DNA from: Pontibacter sp. SGAir0037
GTDB lineage: Bacteria > Bacteroidota > Bacteroidia > Cytophagales > Hymenobacteraceae
Direction of reading: 5' to 3'
Length of the DNA stretch: 64,000 nt
Assembly (NCBI RefSeq): GCF_005491705.1
Contig: NZ_CP028092.1
Span: forward strand, 1,674,001-1,738,000
Shown piece after piece: positions 10-62,767 of the stretch (position 1 is the stretch's first letter; each line of letters opens with the position of its first letter). The position numbers were made by a program, and so were the translations under genes. The notes beneath the pieces are model-generated. The model made no database searches, was not told where the DNA came from, and was given only the letters and a program-made list of their open reading frames with translations.

Positions 10-2158
10 ATTTCAATAGCACCTTAGAGGTATAGAAAGACCATAATCGTTTCGGTTAGGCTTTACAAAGCAGGGGATTTCAATAGCACCTTAGAGGTAT
101 AGAAAGGCTTTTAAAATTTATTTTTATGATTATTATTCGAAAATTTCAATAGCACCTTAGAGGTATAGAAAGTTCCTCAAAAGTCATGGTGCCGCCCCAG
201 TTTAAGTAGATTTCAATAGCACCTTAGAGGTATAGAAAGGTTTCTTAACCAGGCTATGCAGATAAGGATAAGCCAGCATTTCAATAGCACCTTAGAGGTA
301 TAGAAAGCTTCAGATTTAGCCAACAATGTACGCCTCCTGATCTATTTCAATAGCACCTTAGAGGTATAGAAAGCATCCTATAAATACAGCTGGAGGCATC
401 TTGAAAACGAATTTCAATAGCACCTTAGAGGTATAGAAAGATGGTGTAAGAGTGAAACTGGTGCTTAATGACTGGGATTTCAATAGCACCTTAGAGGTAT
501 AGAAAGATTAGCTGCTCTAAGTCGCGTAAAGCATAAAGCGTTGATTTCAATAGCACCTTAGAGGTATAGAAAGGTTGGTACCTATGCCGTTACGATTTCC
601 TCTATCGGTATTTCAATAGCACCTTAGAGGTATAGAAAGTTGGCAAACCTCAGATTCATTATCTGAAGGTGTGGCCATTTCAATAGCACCTTAGAGGTAT
701 AGAAAGCTTGTTTCCTGCAGTTCTGGCAAGAATTCTTCCAGCATTTCAATAGCACCTTAGAGGTATAGAAAGTCCTTAAAATTATACAGCTCGTTACCAG
801 TAGCGTTATTTCAATAGCACCTTAGAGGTATAGAAAGGCTGTACCAGGTAGCCTCGTAGTAGCTGCCTGAGCTTAATTTCAATAGCACCTTAGAGGTATA
901 GAAAGACCTAAAGAGCAGCACCCTGCTTAAAAAAGTAAACGCATTTCAATAGCACCTTAGAGGTATATAAAGGGCTTCCTCCACCAGACTGTTGAGTGCT
1001 CTGAGGCTGATTTCAATAGCACCTTAGAGGTATAGAAAGTCCACAAGCCCTGATTCGAAGATGCGGCTCAGTTTGTATTTCAATAGCACCTTAGAGGTAT
1101 AGAAAGTAATTCCTTACGCACAAAATGCGGACAAAATTTGAGTATTTCAATAGCACCTTAGAGGTATAGAAAGTGAACTTTCAGGACATCCCGGATCCGG
1201 ATGCGGTAGAATTTCAATAGCACCTTAGAGGTATAGAAAGGATGCGGTAGACTATTCCGATACAGTGTTGGTGCTGAATTTCAATAGCACCTTAGAGGTA
1301 TAGAAAGTGGAAGTAGTTGATAGAGAAATTACGCGTTGAAGCACATTTCAATAGCACCTTAGAGGTATAGAAAGGTGGCTCCTACAAGGTTTTTTGATTC
1401 CAGGGTAGATGATTTCAATAGCACCTTAGAGGTATAGAAAGGACGGAACACCCCTCAGCGACAGCCTGGTGAGCGCAAATTTCAATAGCACCTTAGAGGT
1501 ATAGAAAGCAGCTATAAACTATCATCGGGAGGCTGCTCTTAAATATTTCAATAGCACCTTAGAGGTATAGAAAGGCATTACCATAGCTCAGTGGGTGCGA
1601 GGAGCCATTGAATTTCAATAGCACCTTAGAGGTATAGAAAGGTTGATTTTGAGCCTTTCGATATAGGAGAGTGGCTTGATTTCAATAGCACCTTAGAGGT
1701 ATAGAAAGACGATCAACTCGACACCGCTTTTCGCAACATAGTTAATTTCAATAGCACCTTAGAGGTATAGAAAGCCTTATCCATACGCACCATACACCCG
1801 CATGAGCCAGATTTCAATAGCACCTTAGAGGTATAGAAAGGTCGATAAACTCTTCGAGGTCCTTCATGGCTGCGGCGATTTCAATAGCACCTTAGAGGTA
1901 TAGAAAGGAGTGCAGCTGCTAACCCAGTTTTTACTCATCCTGATTTCAATAGCACCTTAGAGGTATAGAAAGTAAACTGGCGCTTCGGCATGGTATAGTT
2001 CATCTTGCGAATTTCAATAGCACCTTAGAGGTATAGAAAGAGGGGTATCCGAAACGAAGAGGTGCGCCCGGACGTGATTTCAATAGCACCTTAGAGGTAT
2101 AGAAAACATAGTTCCATTATAACTACCGCCTCGACTGTAGTTATTTCAATCGCACCTA
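10..2158 (+). CRISPR. CRISPR array, 32 full repeats plus a decayed terminal repeat
   Basis: The repeat is 30 nt, begins ATTTCAATAGCACC and ends GGTATAGAAAG. Full copies start at 10, 77, 143, 210, 278, 344, 411 and so on to 2077, about every 67 nt, with 35-38 nt spacers. Inside the repeat ACCT-TAG-AGGT can form a short stem. All copies look identical except the one at 943-972 (GTATATAAAG, one base change) and the last full copy at 2077-2106 (final G to A). A further fragment at 2143-2158 keeps only the first half. Decay on the right implies that the leader is on the left, outside the window, and that transcription runs left to right with a GAAAG-ending 5' handle. Length and ends resemble type I-B or type III repeats, but no cas gene is visible, so the type is open. 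Spacers at 1174-1210 and 1241-1277 overlap in sequence. Confidence 0.99.
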
Positions 2159-2178
2159 AACTTAACAAACTCCACCAC

Positions 2179-2231: not shown

Positions 2232-5200
2232 TTACTTTCTGGCAGCTACCAGTTTACCATCTCCACTCTTGCTACTTTCAAATAAGATATGGGTCATAAT
2301 CATCAGGTTTTGACCTGCAGCCGCTTTTTCGTTTTTAAAGACAAAATAGAGGTCGTGCATTCCTTCCGTTGGCTGCAACGCAATGCGGGCTTGTTGTGGA
2401 GGCGTCGACTGGGCAGGCGTTGTGGTTTGCCTGATCATCTCCGACTGGCCTATCACTTTTCCGTCAGGCGCTCCAAGACGTACCTCTATAGTACCACCTG
2501 CTGCATTCAGGAATTCCTGAGGTGCCATCACGGTGCAGGTAAGCTGGCTGATATGGGTCAGGTCGATCTGCCTGAAACCAAAATGCGATCCGGTTCCCGA
2601 CACAATCATCATTTCAGGACCACCCGGGATCTTGAATTTCTGAATGGCCTGTGTTATTTCTGCAGAACTGGCCGCTACTCCCGGGTTGCGCATCACATAG
2701 GTTTGCTCAGAAGGCAAGCCAGGTATTCCGTTGGCTCCTTTGTCGCGGTAAGCCGCCCGTAGCACATACACCCCCACTCCCTTATCGCCTTTTGGAAGAG
2801 CTGTGGTATAAGTCCCTTTCACGGGTAACGACGGAGCAGCCGTCTTTTCTTCTGAAAGACTCAGGATATACGCCACCATTTCCCTGGCATCAGGAGCAGG
2901 CAATTTCGGGTGAGCACTCATGGCCACTTCGCCCCACACGCCTTTGCCCCCGCTTATTACTTTCTTAGCCAGTCGCTCGGCGGCACCGGCATCGTTCTTA
3001 TACTTTTGGGCTACCTGCTTATAGGTGGGTCCAATCGATTTCTTGTCGATGCTATGGCACGATTTGCAGTCGCTGGCCTCCACCAACTTTTGCCCTTTTA
3101 CATAGGCCGCAGAAGCGTCGGCACTCCGGTGCCCCAGGGCAATATCTACCTGGTCGAATCCTTCCGGCAGGTAATCAATGGTTACTGCTACCTGTTCGGG
3201 CTGTATACCGCCACTCGCTAAGCTTCCATCTTCCTTGTCTTCTACTTTCACTTCGTATTGAAAAGCTTTGCCCGGCAGAAAGAACGTTTTATTACCTCCC
3301 AGGATGTCGAACGTCAGCACGGGCGGTTCGTTTCCAGCCTGTACTTCCAGTGTTTGGCTGCTGGCTGCCCCTTTGGCGTCTGTCACGGTAAGTGTGGCTT
3401 TGTAAACGCCCGCTTTATCGAAGGTGAAGGAAGGATTGGCTTCCTTCAGGGTTTTGGTACCTGTTGCGGCAGAAGAAATCGTCCATTTATAGTCCAGCGC
3501 ATCATGGTCGAAATCTTGTGTGCCTTCCGAGGTAAACTGTACTGCCAGCGGTAAAGCGCCAGCCGGTTTATCTACTGCCACCTGCACCACTGGTTTACGG
3601 TTGCCGCCGTTGTACTCAATTTTTACCAGGCGGGCATTATCATTTGCCTGAAACCAGCCTGTGCCGTATTCCAGCACATACAGATCCCCTTCCGGACCAA
3701 ATTCCATGTCCATGGGGTTAGAGAATTTATGGTTTGGCATAAACGGCTCCATAGATACATAGTTGCCTTCTTTATCCATGGTCACAGCCATGATCCAGCC
3801 GCGCATCCACTCATAGATAAACAGTTTGCCGTCGTAATAAGCCGGGAAAGCACGCTTGGCATTCTTAAACTGATCCTGGTAATATACCTGCCCGGCCATA
3901 GCGGTGCGGGCACCGGAACCTACCAGTGGAAACTCAGCTGATTCGCCGTACGGATACCAGATAAAGGCTTTCTGCGCCGGAGGGAGCTGGTTTAAGCCAG
4001 TGTTGTTGGGGGAATTGTTAACCGGTCTGGCTGGGTCGAAAGCTGCGCCGCTTCTGTTGCCGGCAAAGTCGAAGTGATTGTACGGCTTGTTGTCCCCGAT
4101 AAAGTGCGGCCAGCCATAGTTACCCGCTTTCCGGGCTTGTCCTACCTCATCGTAACCTGCCGGGCCTTTTCCATCTTCCGGATCGTTGGCATCCGGGCCA
4201 ACCTCGCCCCAGTAAACAAAGCCTGTTTTCTTGTCAACCGAAATCCGGAACGGGTTGCGGTGCCCCATGGTATAGATTTCAGGTCTTGTTTTAGCAGTTC
4301 CTTTCGGAAAAAGATTGCCTTCCGGTATGGTATAAGTACCGTTTGCTTCGGGGTGGATCCGCAGGATTTTGCCGCGCAGGTCGTTGGTGTTGGCCGAGGA
4401 TTTCTGAGCATCCCAGGGGTTTCGTCCGGCTCTTTCATCAACGGGAGCATAGGCTGTGGCACGGGGGCTGGTATTGTCGCCGGTCGAAAGGTATAAGTTT
4501 CCGTTGGCATCAAAATCAATGGACCCGCCGGTATGGCAGCACTGCTCCCGCTGCACCGGCACCTCCAGCAGTACTTTTTTGCTGTCGAGCACCAGCTCAT
4601 CACCCCGCATTTCATACCTGGTCAGGATGTTGCGGGCAACATCGCCTGCTTCTGAATAGTAGAGGTATATCCAGTGGTTTTCTTCGAATTTCGGGTCCTG
4701 CGCCAGGCCCAGCAGTCCGTCTTCACCCTCTGTTACTTTACCCTCTTTATCGGTATACTTCGTGCTGACAGGTATGGTGGCTATTACGGATATTTTGCCG
4801 GTTGCAGGACTGTATAGCTTTACATTACCGCGTCGCTCGATAAACAGGACCCTTCCGTCGCGGAATACCGTCAGCTCCATCGGCTCTTCGAGTTTTTCAT
4901 CGAGTACTACTTTAGAAAAACGGTTCTCTTCGGGCATTCGTGGCGTGCGCACCTTATCGTAGTCAAGCTTAGCGGGCTTATCGCCTCCTGTTACATATCT
5001 CAGACCTTCAGCCAGGTGCTGTAACACAAGGGGTTCTGTAAAGGTAGCGTCGGTATGCCCTACGCTGGTATAAAAAGAGCGGCCGCCGTCAAATTCCTGG
5101 TACCAGCTCATCGGGTGGTTTTCGCCGTTGGTGCCGCCTTCGTAGGTTTTTTCATCTATAGCCACTAGCACATTAATATTCGGGCTGATCTGCTTAAAGC

Positions 5201-5735
5201 TGTAAAACTCATCTTCACGCTCCCACTTCTCCGGCAGAAACTTAGTGGCATCGTTATCTTTGTTCACCACCAGAAAAGTACCTTTCTGCACATTGTTCGG
5301 CATCGGGTGATTATCGAAATAGGCACCTACCAACTGCCCGTACCAGGGCCAGGTATATTCCGTATCCGAAGCAGCGTGAATACCCAGATAGCCGCCACCG
5401 GCCTGAATATAGCGCTCAAAGTTATTCTGCTGCTCTGCGTTCAGCACATCGCCTGTCGTATTCAGGAAAACAACAGCTTTGTAGCGTTTCAGGTTTTCTT
5501 CATTAAACATGCCGGCATCTTCGGTCATGTCCACCAGCATCCCCTGCTCCTGCCCTATCTTCAGCAAAGCAGCTTGTCCGGCAGGTATAGAGGCATGGCG
5601 AAAAGCAGCAGTTTTGCTGAACACCAGCATCCGCTTCGGTTCGGTATCGCCTGTACAGGACCAGAATCCTGGCAGGCACAGGAGCAAGAGCAAGCAGAGG
5701 CTGTGCATCCGTTTAAAGGTGTAGTTTTTTAACAT
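2232..5735 (-). CDS. ThuA / PQQ-type sugar dehydrogenase / PKD / cytochrome c fusion lipoprotein
   Basis: 1167 aa from the ATG at 5735; the reading frame extends to a GTG at 5768, but the ATG gives a better export signal. A lipoprotein signal ends in FWSC (Cys27). Domains in order: ThuA-like (about 35-247, ending in a GHTDATF segment), glucose/sorbosone dehydrogenase beta-propeller (about 272-708, with GHRNPFR and GWPH), PKD (about 714-797), cytochrome c (about 877-961; haem motif CKSCH at 890-894, candidate axial Met in VAMSAH near 939), and a C-terminal beta domain resembling a CBM6-type sugar-binding module. Inferred role: periplasmic or surface oxidation of a sugar or polyol with electrons passed to the tethered haem. 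ThuA relatives act on disaccharides, but the substrate cannot be read here. It is a single gene with its own terminator. The 147-nt gap to the next, divergent gene (5736-5882) should hold both promoters. Confidence 0.9.
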   Translation of the reverse strand: MLKNYTFKRMHSLCLLLLLCLPGFWSCTGDTEPKRMLVFSKTAAFRHASIPAGQAALLKIGQEQGMLVDMTEDAGMFNEENLKRYKAVVFLNTTGDVLNAEQQNNFERYIQAGGGYLGIHAASDTEYTWPWYGQLVGAYFDNHPMPNNVQKGTFLVVNKDNDATKFLPEKWEREDEFYSFKQISPNINVLVAIDEKTYEGGTNGENHPMSWYQEFDGGRSFYTSVGHTDATFTEPLVLQHLAEGLRYVTGGDKPAKLDYDKVRTPRMPEENRFSKVVLDEKLEEPMELTVFRDGRVLFIERRGNVKLYSPATGKISVIATIPVSTKYTDKEGKVTEGEDGLLGLAQDPKFEENHWIYLYYSEAGDVARNILTRYEMRGDELVLDSKKVLLEVPVQREQCCHTGGSIDFDANGNLYLSTGDNTSPRATAYAPVDERAGRNPWDAQKSSANTNDLRGKILRIHPEANGTYTIPEGNLFPKGTAKTRPEIYTMGHRNPFRISVDKKTGFVYWGEVGPDANDPEDGKGPAGYDEVGQARKAGNYGWPHFIGDNKPYNHFDFAGNRSGAAFDPARPVNNSPNNTGLNQLPPAQKAFIWYPYGESAEFPLVGSGARTAMAGQVYYQDQFKNAKRAFPAYYDGKLFIYEWMRGWIMAVTMDKEGNYVSMEPFMPNHKFSNPMDMEFGPEGDLYVLEYGTGWFQANDNARLVKIEYNGGNRKPVVQVAVDKPAGALPLAVQFTSEGTQDFDHDALDYKWTISSAATGTKTLKEANPSFTFDKAGVYKATLTVTDAKGAASSQTLEVQAGNEPPVLTFDILGGNKTFFLPGKAFQYEVKVEDKEDGSLASGGIQPEQVAVTIDYLPEGFDQVDIALGHRSADASAAYVKGQKLVEASDCKSCHSIDKKSIGPTYKQVAQKYKNDAGAAERLAKKVISGGKGVWGEVAMSAHPKLPAPDAREMVAYILSLSEEKTAAPSLPVKGTYTTALPKGDKGVGVYVLRAAYRDKGANGIPGLPSEQTYVMRNPGVAASSAEITQAIQKFKIPGGPEMMIVSGTGSHFGFRQIDLTHISQLTCTVMAPQEFLNAAGGTIEVRLGAPDGKVIGQSEMIRQTTTPAQSTPPQQARIALQPTEGMHDLYFVFKNEKAAAGQNLMIMTHILFESSKSGDGKLVAARK

Positions 5736-5882
5736 AAGGTGAAGGTTTTTTTTAAAGCGATTAATCACATATTTAAAACAAGCAAAATATGCAGAATTTA
5801 TTCATTGTGTTACTTTGACATAATGTTAGTTTATTTCTAAATTAAAAAAAACAAAAACCATAAATTATTTATATTGCCTGGC

Positions 5883-62564: not shown

Positions 62565-62638
62565 GGTCTGGTAGTTCAGTTGGTTAGAATGCCGCCCTGT
62601 CACGGCGGAGGTCGCGGGTTCGAGTCCCGTCCAGACCG
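62565..62638 (+). tRNA. tRNA-Asp (GTC)
   Basis: 74 nt. Acceptor arm GGTCTGG pairs with CCAGACC, discriminator G. D arm GTTC...GAAT, anticodon stem CCGCC/GGCGG with loop CTGTCAC giving anticodon GTC, and T arm with GGTTCGAGTCC. CCA is not encoded (GCA follows). Confidence 0.98.
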
Positions 62639-62693
62639 CAGGTAAAACTGCGGTAACGTAGCAAGAGCAAAAGGCTCTATTTTTTAAAGTATT

Positions 62694-62767
62694 GGTCTGG
62701 TAGTTCAGTTGGTTAGAATGCCGCCCTGTCACGGCGGAGGTCGCGGGTTCGAGTCCCGTCCAGACCG
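62694..62767 (+). tRNA. tRNA-Asp (GTC), second identical copy
   Basis: Identical over all 74 nt to the copy at 62565-62638, with a 55-nt spacer, and followed directly by a terminator. The pair forms one transcription unit. CCA is not encoded. Confidence 0.98.

Follow-up and report, generated by a model that had tools for sequence, protein, structure and literature searches.

Overlapping CRISPR spacers have served in Sulfolobus as a means of studying the sites at which captured DNA is cut, and they are described as rare in natural Sulfolobus loci, according to excerpts of Erdmann and Garrett 2012 (PMC3468723). For type I-B systems, the motif CCN is listed in several sources (the table of PMC8482600, excerpts of PMC8406132, and the table of PMC13199841). 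Excerpts of the last of these state that a pyrimidine at position −2 is recognized by all characterized Cas8b proteins, and its table gives Pyrococcus furiosus as a CCN system with a repeat ending in AAG. Reading a PAM usually requires the target of a spacer, whereas overlaps between spacers within an array reveal a few true flanking bases without a target. Among the titles and abstract beginnings covered by our literature search, none dealt with reading PAMs from overlaps within natural arrays, and the search returned no paper on Pontibacter CRISPR spacers. In the Pontibacter array described here, spacers 47 and 48 overlap by 11 nt and were, with little doubt, captured successively from the same 63-nt segment of one invader; both were probably cut right after a CCN motif, which is CCG for spacer 48.

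The genome comprises 5.38 Mb in two contigs, and the window, the whole stretch of 64,000 nt that was analyzed (C1:1674001-1738000), starts within a CRISPR array located at C1:1672083-1676172 and consisting of 62 repeats and 61 spacers. Across the genome, 61 repeats with at most one change were found, plus a degenerate last repeat. The 30-nt repeat is ATTTCAATAGCACCTTAGAGGTATAGAAAG, which we take to resemble that of Thermotoga, and the spacers are 35 to 38 nt long. The first repeat of the array begins 1,918 bases ahead of the window, positions 1-9 of the window are the last 9 nt of spacer 29, and the portion of the array inside the window (10..2172, plus strand) holds spacers 30 to 61 of the 61. 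An internal repeat at 943-972 carries a single change, TATATAAAG in place of TATAGAAAG, and the degenerate last repeat (2143..2172, plus strand), in which 12 of 30 letters differ, is taken to mark the old end of the array. A single repeat separates the identical spacers 20 and 21 (L003 19372-19475), which are likely a unit duplication. On the minus strand, adjoining the array, window positions 2232-5768 encode a large protein with ThuA, glucose/sorbosone dehydrogenase, PKD, and cytochrome c domains, together with a CBM6 match below its cut-off, and a tandem pair of tRNA genes with equal scores is found at 62565-62767.

Upstream of the array, the genes cas6-cas5-cas3-cas8b-cas7-cas4-cas1-cas2 run in one direction, and 219 bp separate cas2 from the first repeat. 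All eight genes have open frames and were named by family searches, which place the system in type I-B. PADLOC identified Cas8b (E 1.3e-167), Cas7b (4.9e-168), Cas5b (7.8e-81), and Cas3b (E 0); the match to the NCBIfam I-B Cas7 model fell below its cut-off, and Pfam returned no Cas5, Cas7, or Cas8 among the cas proteins. In the adaptation module, Cas1 matched the Cas1b model TIGR03641 at 382 bits (cut-off 304), and Cas4 and Cas2 scored above their Pfam cut-offs. Judged from these sequence matches, the operon is a complete type I-B cas operon with a Cas4-Cas1-Cas2 adaptation module of the Cas1b kind. Because cas2 lies on one side of the array and the degenerate repeat on the other, the leader is taken to be at the cas2 side, at low coordinates, and the array would run from there toward higher coordinates. 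Two WYL-domain regulators, the first apparently truncated, are encoded upstream of cas6 (L003 7122-7772 and 8761-9681), and another genome of the genus, G001, likewise encodes one WYL-domain regulator at the corresponding place.

Spacer 47 (1174..1210, plus strand, 37 nt) is the nearer of the pair to the leader and presumably the newer; spacer 48 (1241..1277, plus strand, 37 nt) is presumably the older. The first-pass annotation had pointed out that the end of the former is identical to the start of the latter over 11 nt, and both its coordinates and its letters were verified: the common sequence, GATGCGGTAGA, stands at 1200..1210 (plus strand) at the end of spacer 47 and again at 1241-1251, and the two copies are separated by a 30-nt repeat of consensus sequence (1211..1240, plus strand). 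When merged, the two spacers give 63 nt, for which several open frames had been proposed; four of the six frames are indeed open, among them NFQDIPDPDAVDYSDTVLVL. With the codon usage of the window as a yardstick, frame +3, that of NFQDIPDPDAVDYSDTVLVL, is the sole positive-scoring frame of the merged 63 nt, and it is also the best-scoring frame for each of the unshared halves, the first 26 nt of spacer 47 and the last 26 nt of spacer 48. The common frame of both halves lends modest support to continuity, given that one frame in six agrees by chance. Inside spacer 47, the letters CCG (1197..1199, plus strand) would be the 5′ flank of protospacer 48, at PAM positions −3 to −1. Because the repeat and the CCG flank both end in G, the overlap is also readable as 12 nt, which leaves a one-base uncertainty in the position of the spacer edge.

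The pair was compared with spacers from arrays adjoining relatives of this Cas1, surveyed in two sets. For set 1, 90 stretches were entered and 78 gave arrays, this locus included, with 4626 spacers of 28-50 nt after 8 of 4634 spacers outside that range had been dropped. For set 2, for which the hypotheses were noted down ahead of fetching, 51 stretches were entered and 41 gave arrays, with 2343 spacers. Loci L090, L092, L093, L098, and L099 were omitted, as they repeat loci already present; counting L071 twice was rejected, as its overlaps 78/79 and 81/82 belong to a duplicated module; and the low-complexity overlap L104 125/215 was removed ahead of the mismatch-tolerant counts. Exact end overlaps of at least 11 nt within a locus numbered 20 in set 1 and seven in set 2, versus 0.42 and 0.33, respectively, expected from between-locus pairs, and 17 and seven remained without duplicated modules. 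Among neighboring spacers, set 1 contained three exact overlaps of at least 11 nt versus 0.0087 expected (4,536 neighbor pairs, 78 loci including this one), the three representing two distinct events, 47/48 and L071. Set 2 contained none among 2,295 neighbor pairs, with 0.0061 expected, and L122 93/94 is a further neighbor pair with one mismatch in 14 nt. Exact partial end overlaps that reach 11 nt were absent from three same-genus arrays with 167 further spacers. An overlap such as that of spacers 47 and 48 is infrequent but otherwise ordinary.

If spacers 47 and 48 came from unrelated targets, their 11 common letters would be an accident. Internal matches of 11-12 nt are expected in the array, spacers 6 and 32 having 12 nt in common on opposite strands, and the idea that any pair with 11 nt in common is meaningful was rejected. 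Setting aside 47/48 and the identical spacers 20 and 21, no two of the 61 spacers overlap at their ends by more than 5 nt. We simulated 3000 arrays with the dinucleotide statistics of the spacers themselves. In nine of the 3000 (a probability of about 0.003), some pair of spacers, regardless of strand, had an end overlap of 11 nt; in none did same-strand neighbors overlap by 11 nt. Accidental end overlaps do exist among real spacers, with 20 of at least 11 nt in 10,479,737 between-locus pairs, 19 of which have exactly 11 nt and are chance matches, and 11 nt is the shortest overlap class that we accept as real. The target searches described below likewise gave no target that would exclude accident. 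Against it, the CCG flank agrees with the motif of related exact overlaps, where CC is expected by chance at 0.058, and both halves of the merged stretch prefer one coding frame. The simulations and the excess of neighbor overlaps in set 1 bear out the view of the first-pass annotation that a chance match is very unlikely, and we put accident down as highly improbable. An array rearrangement or an assembly error, for example recombination between units, could also produce common letters, and units do become duplicated, as seen in the identical spacers 20 and 21 and in a duplicated block in G001. Rearrangement, however, copies whole units or joins at repeats, whereas in this pair the common letters are confined to the end of one spacer and the start of the next, and a perfect 30-nt repeat intervenes between them; such an origin is scarcely credible.

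Targets for the merged 63 nt were sought in several collections. In the own genome, the merged sequence matches the array only. Phages gave no convincing match (the best was 23 nt at 91%, E 6) and neither did plasmids (best E 1); 50 genomes of the genus (own included), 204 of the family, and 287 of the phylum provided no usable target. The 20-residue frame found nothing usable in phages and only the array in 390 genomes of the order, four translated frames of the merged stretch had no match in PHROGs, and six pattern scans of viral contigs all returned 0. Two weak matches in phylum genomes (query 16-43 at 90% and 8-40 at 82%) were dropped, the likeness ending at the match ends, and seven weak matches in the genus, inspected as loci, showed no repeat of this kind. 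The continuous match to the merged 63 nt that the first-pass annotation had set as its check was thus not obtained in phages, plasmids, viral contigs, or genus, family, and phylum genomes. Because no target was found, the continuity of the 63 nt in the invader is something that we infer.

The 5′ flank of spacer 48 exposed by the overlap is CCG, and it can be set beside the flanks exposed by other overlaps. In set 1, where the YCN pattern was first noticed, the 5′ flanks at exact overlaps, with duplicates removed, are YCN in 12 of 12 cases and in 11 of 11 without 47/48. They divide into six CCN and six TCN, and all of the TCN flanks come from L104 (G285:C63:31900-51800), a locus with 245 spacers whose exact overlaps of at least 11 nt, including two head-to-head pairs, give TCN in six of six; the other exact overlaps of set 1 outside L104 give CCN in five of five. 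Inexact overlaps of L104 also yield TAA and TTG, whereas the exact overlaps of the other set 1 loci yield CCN. When the pattern was then put to the test on set 2, three of only four readable flanks at exact overlaps were YCN (one CCN and two TCN, the remaining one being TAC). YCN flanks were found at 6 of 13 inexact overlaps (four of eight in set 1, two of five in set 2) and at 4 of 15 between-locus overlaps of exactly 11 nt, with a YCN background of about 0.11 (in set 1, 0.058 for CC and 0.055 for TC). The 3′ flanks are without such a pattern: 3 of 14 at overlaps of at least 12 nt and none of eight at 11 nt.

Near-identical spacers within the same locus bear on how the two ends of a spacer are set. 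Pairs with a common 5′ end and a differing 3′ end number 20 in set 1 and 12 in set 2, and the reverse, a common 3′ end with a differing 5′ end, was found in neither set (0 and 0). With 32 pairs of the first sort and none of the second, the motif likely sits 5′ of the protospacer and determines the 5′ end, a loose ruler determining the 3′ end. Fixing of the 5′ end is imperfect, since four near-identical pairs are shifted by one base (L075 34/94 in set 1; L145 36/38, L145 1/8, and L183 8/37 in set 2). As read from the sequences of the overlaps, the motif for this array is likely CCN; within the closest Cas1 group (about 92-93% identical) it comes from pair 47/48 alone, and the remaining CCN examples are from loci with Cas1 at 39-46% identity. 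The PAM candidate of the first-pass annotation, CCG or TCCG, holds insofar as a PAM-like CCG lies 5′ of spacer 48; the T of TCCG is unneeded, the related exact overlaps being YCN.

In the order of events that we propose, spacer 48, being farther from the leader, would have entered the array first, and Cas4-Cas1-Cas2 would then have taken a second fragment from the same strand, starting 26 nt upstream, the invader DNA presumably being continuous across the junction. Overlapping spacers tend to lie close together. Exact overlaps at most four array positions apart account for 6 of 17 in set 1 (1.27 expected, p 0.0004) and for three of seven in set 2 (0.55 expected, p 0.013), and when 47/48 is left out of both sets, 8 of 23 are within four positions (1.69 expected, reached in 0 of 20000 shuffles). 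Adjacency as such is not significant without 47/48 (1 of 23, p 0.35). Because overlapping spacers cluster in array order, their closeness fits bouts of uptake from one invader.

The first-pass annotation had suggested repeated uptake from one element, for example through primed adaptation; two captures from one stretch are retained here, and priming is not established by the weak excess of 17 in 24 overlaps. In primed adaptation, crRNA 48 would have bound the returning invader, Cas3 would have moved away on the PAM side, following the displaced strand, and spacer 47 would have been taken from just upstream on that strand by Cas4-Cas1-Cas2. The geometry of the pair fits, the newer spacer lying upstream on the same strand; cas3 is present; and overlaps cluster in array order. 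The priming pattern of Haloarcula hispanica predicts newer-upstream same-strand pairs or tail-to-tail pairs. Of the 24 exact overlaps of both sets, 17 have a predicted geometry (12 of 17 in set 1, five of seven in set 2; one-sided p 0.032), as do 16 of 23 without 47/48 (p 0.047) and 26 of 39 with mismatches allowed (p 0.027; 18 of 25 in set 1). Because the hypothesis originated from set 1, set 2 is the fair test, though too small to decide; by itself it gives five of seven exact overlaps (p 0.23) and, once mismatches are allowed, 8 of 14 (p 0.40). Furthermore, the excess among exact overlaps is mostly one of tail-to-tail over head-to-head pairs (11 versus 3) and less one of same-strand direction (6 versus 4), a second capture 26 nt away requires no priming, and L071 78/79, the other exact neighbor overlap, runs in the opposite direction. 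Priming of the second capture is possible but unproven, and on balance we doubt it. We lean instead toward independent, naive capture, either during a single infection or from an element that was met often; given a limited number of CCN sites, two fragments would then overlap by luck. Both strands and both directions are represented (10 same-strand, 11 tail-to-tail, and 3 head-to-head exact overlaps), and recapture of the same protospacer is common, as in the 32 pairs with a common 5′ end and a differing 3′ end. The weak priming-type geometry speaks against naive capture, which, unless joined to a bout of uptake, also leaves the clustering in array order unexplained.

Several related loci showed features of their own. 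In the same-genus genome G001 (L043 4917-13861), the 29-nt core of the repeat of our array recurs unchanged in 82 of 82 copies, and Cas1, Cas2, and Cas4 match those of this genome (L003 9911-17863) at 92, 86, and 80%, respectively. The effector genes of G001 are of the I-PGING kind (Csp1, Csp2, and Cas5p), and its locus gave no tblastn match at 1e-5 to cas5, cas7, or cas8b of this genome; behind one adaptation module, the effector has apparently been swapped. The array at L048 10750-13839 (G041:C9:42750-45839) has two repeat forms, the 20 leader-side repeats ending in GAAAC and the next 26 in GAAAG, as though the first repeat had mutated and every later copy had inherited the change. The leaders of seven related arrays have in common AGTCGTCRGCT and, further on, GACGC, and the leader of this genome (L003 17962-18004) contains the inverted pair CGTCAG/CTGACG, 28 bp apart. 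L046, L047, and L049 (G021, G006, and G047, respectively) each carry one or two repeats of this kind. By tblastn, the 12-20 kb surrounding these repeats gave no match to any of the eight cas proteins, and the repeats are possibly remnants of lost arrays.

What is new here is the member and its inferred motif only, CCN being already known for type I-B. The pair gives a testable motif, CCN, for the Pontibacter type I-B system, and overlaps of this sort give a way of asking, across large numbers of arrays, whether priming contributed to the growth of natural memory. Tentatively, long natural type I-B arrays of the Bacteroidota might keep a readable record of capture without a known invader, comprising the PAM, the anchoring of the 5′ end, a loose 3′ ruler, bouts of uptake, and faint traces of primed adaptation, a record of which 47/48 would be one clean frame. 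The surrounding survey is the part worth extending.

Among the systems described, Sulfolobus solfataricus has overlapping spacers from one element, with PAM-side, leader-proximal ends fixed after CCN and variable far ends; it is an archaeon, however, and its new spacers arose in infected cultures and were mapped to contigs of a co-infecting element (excerpts of Erdmann and Garrett 2012; PMC3468723), whereas ours is a natural array. The type I-B system of Clostridioides difficile captures DNA at CCN (as for 96% of the spacers derived from the plasmid used) and interferes at YCN, according to excerpts of PMC8406132, but its repeat ends in AAT rather than the AAG seen here, and its motif was measured while ours comes from overlaps. 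Thermotoga maritima, also type I-B, has a YYD motif, which excerpts of PMC13199841 describe as measured with purified parts and which is broader than CCN. In type I-B priming in Haloarcula hispanica, the second capture occurs upstream on the same strand, as in our pair: that strand held 50 of 58 upstream protospacers, and the opposite strand held 25 of 28 downstream ones; the motif there is TTC, and the requirement for a priming spacer was demonstrated (excerpts of PMC3936756). In Thermus, overlapping pairs are shared between sequenced genomes, some of them in systems of different types, unlike our pair within a single array; as in Pontibacter, the arrays are natural ones, and excerpts of PMC6452258 take their partly overlapping spacers as independent captures at one locus.
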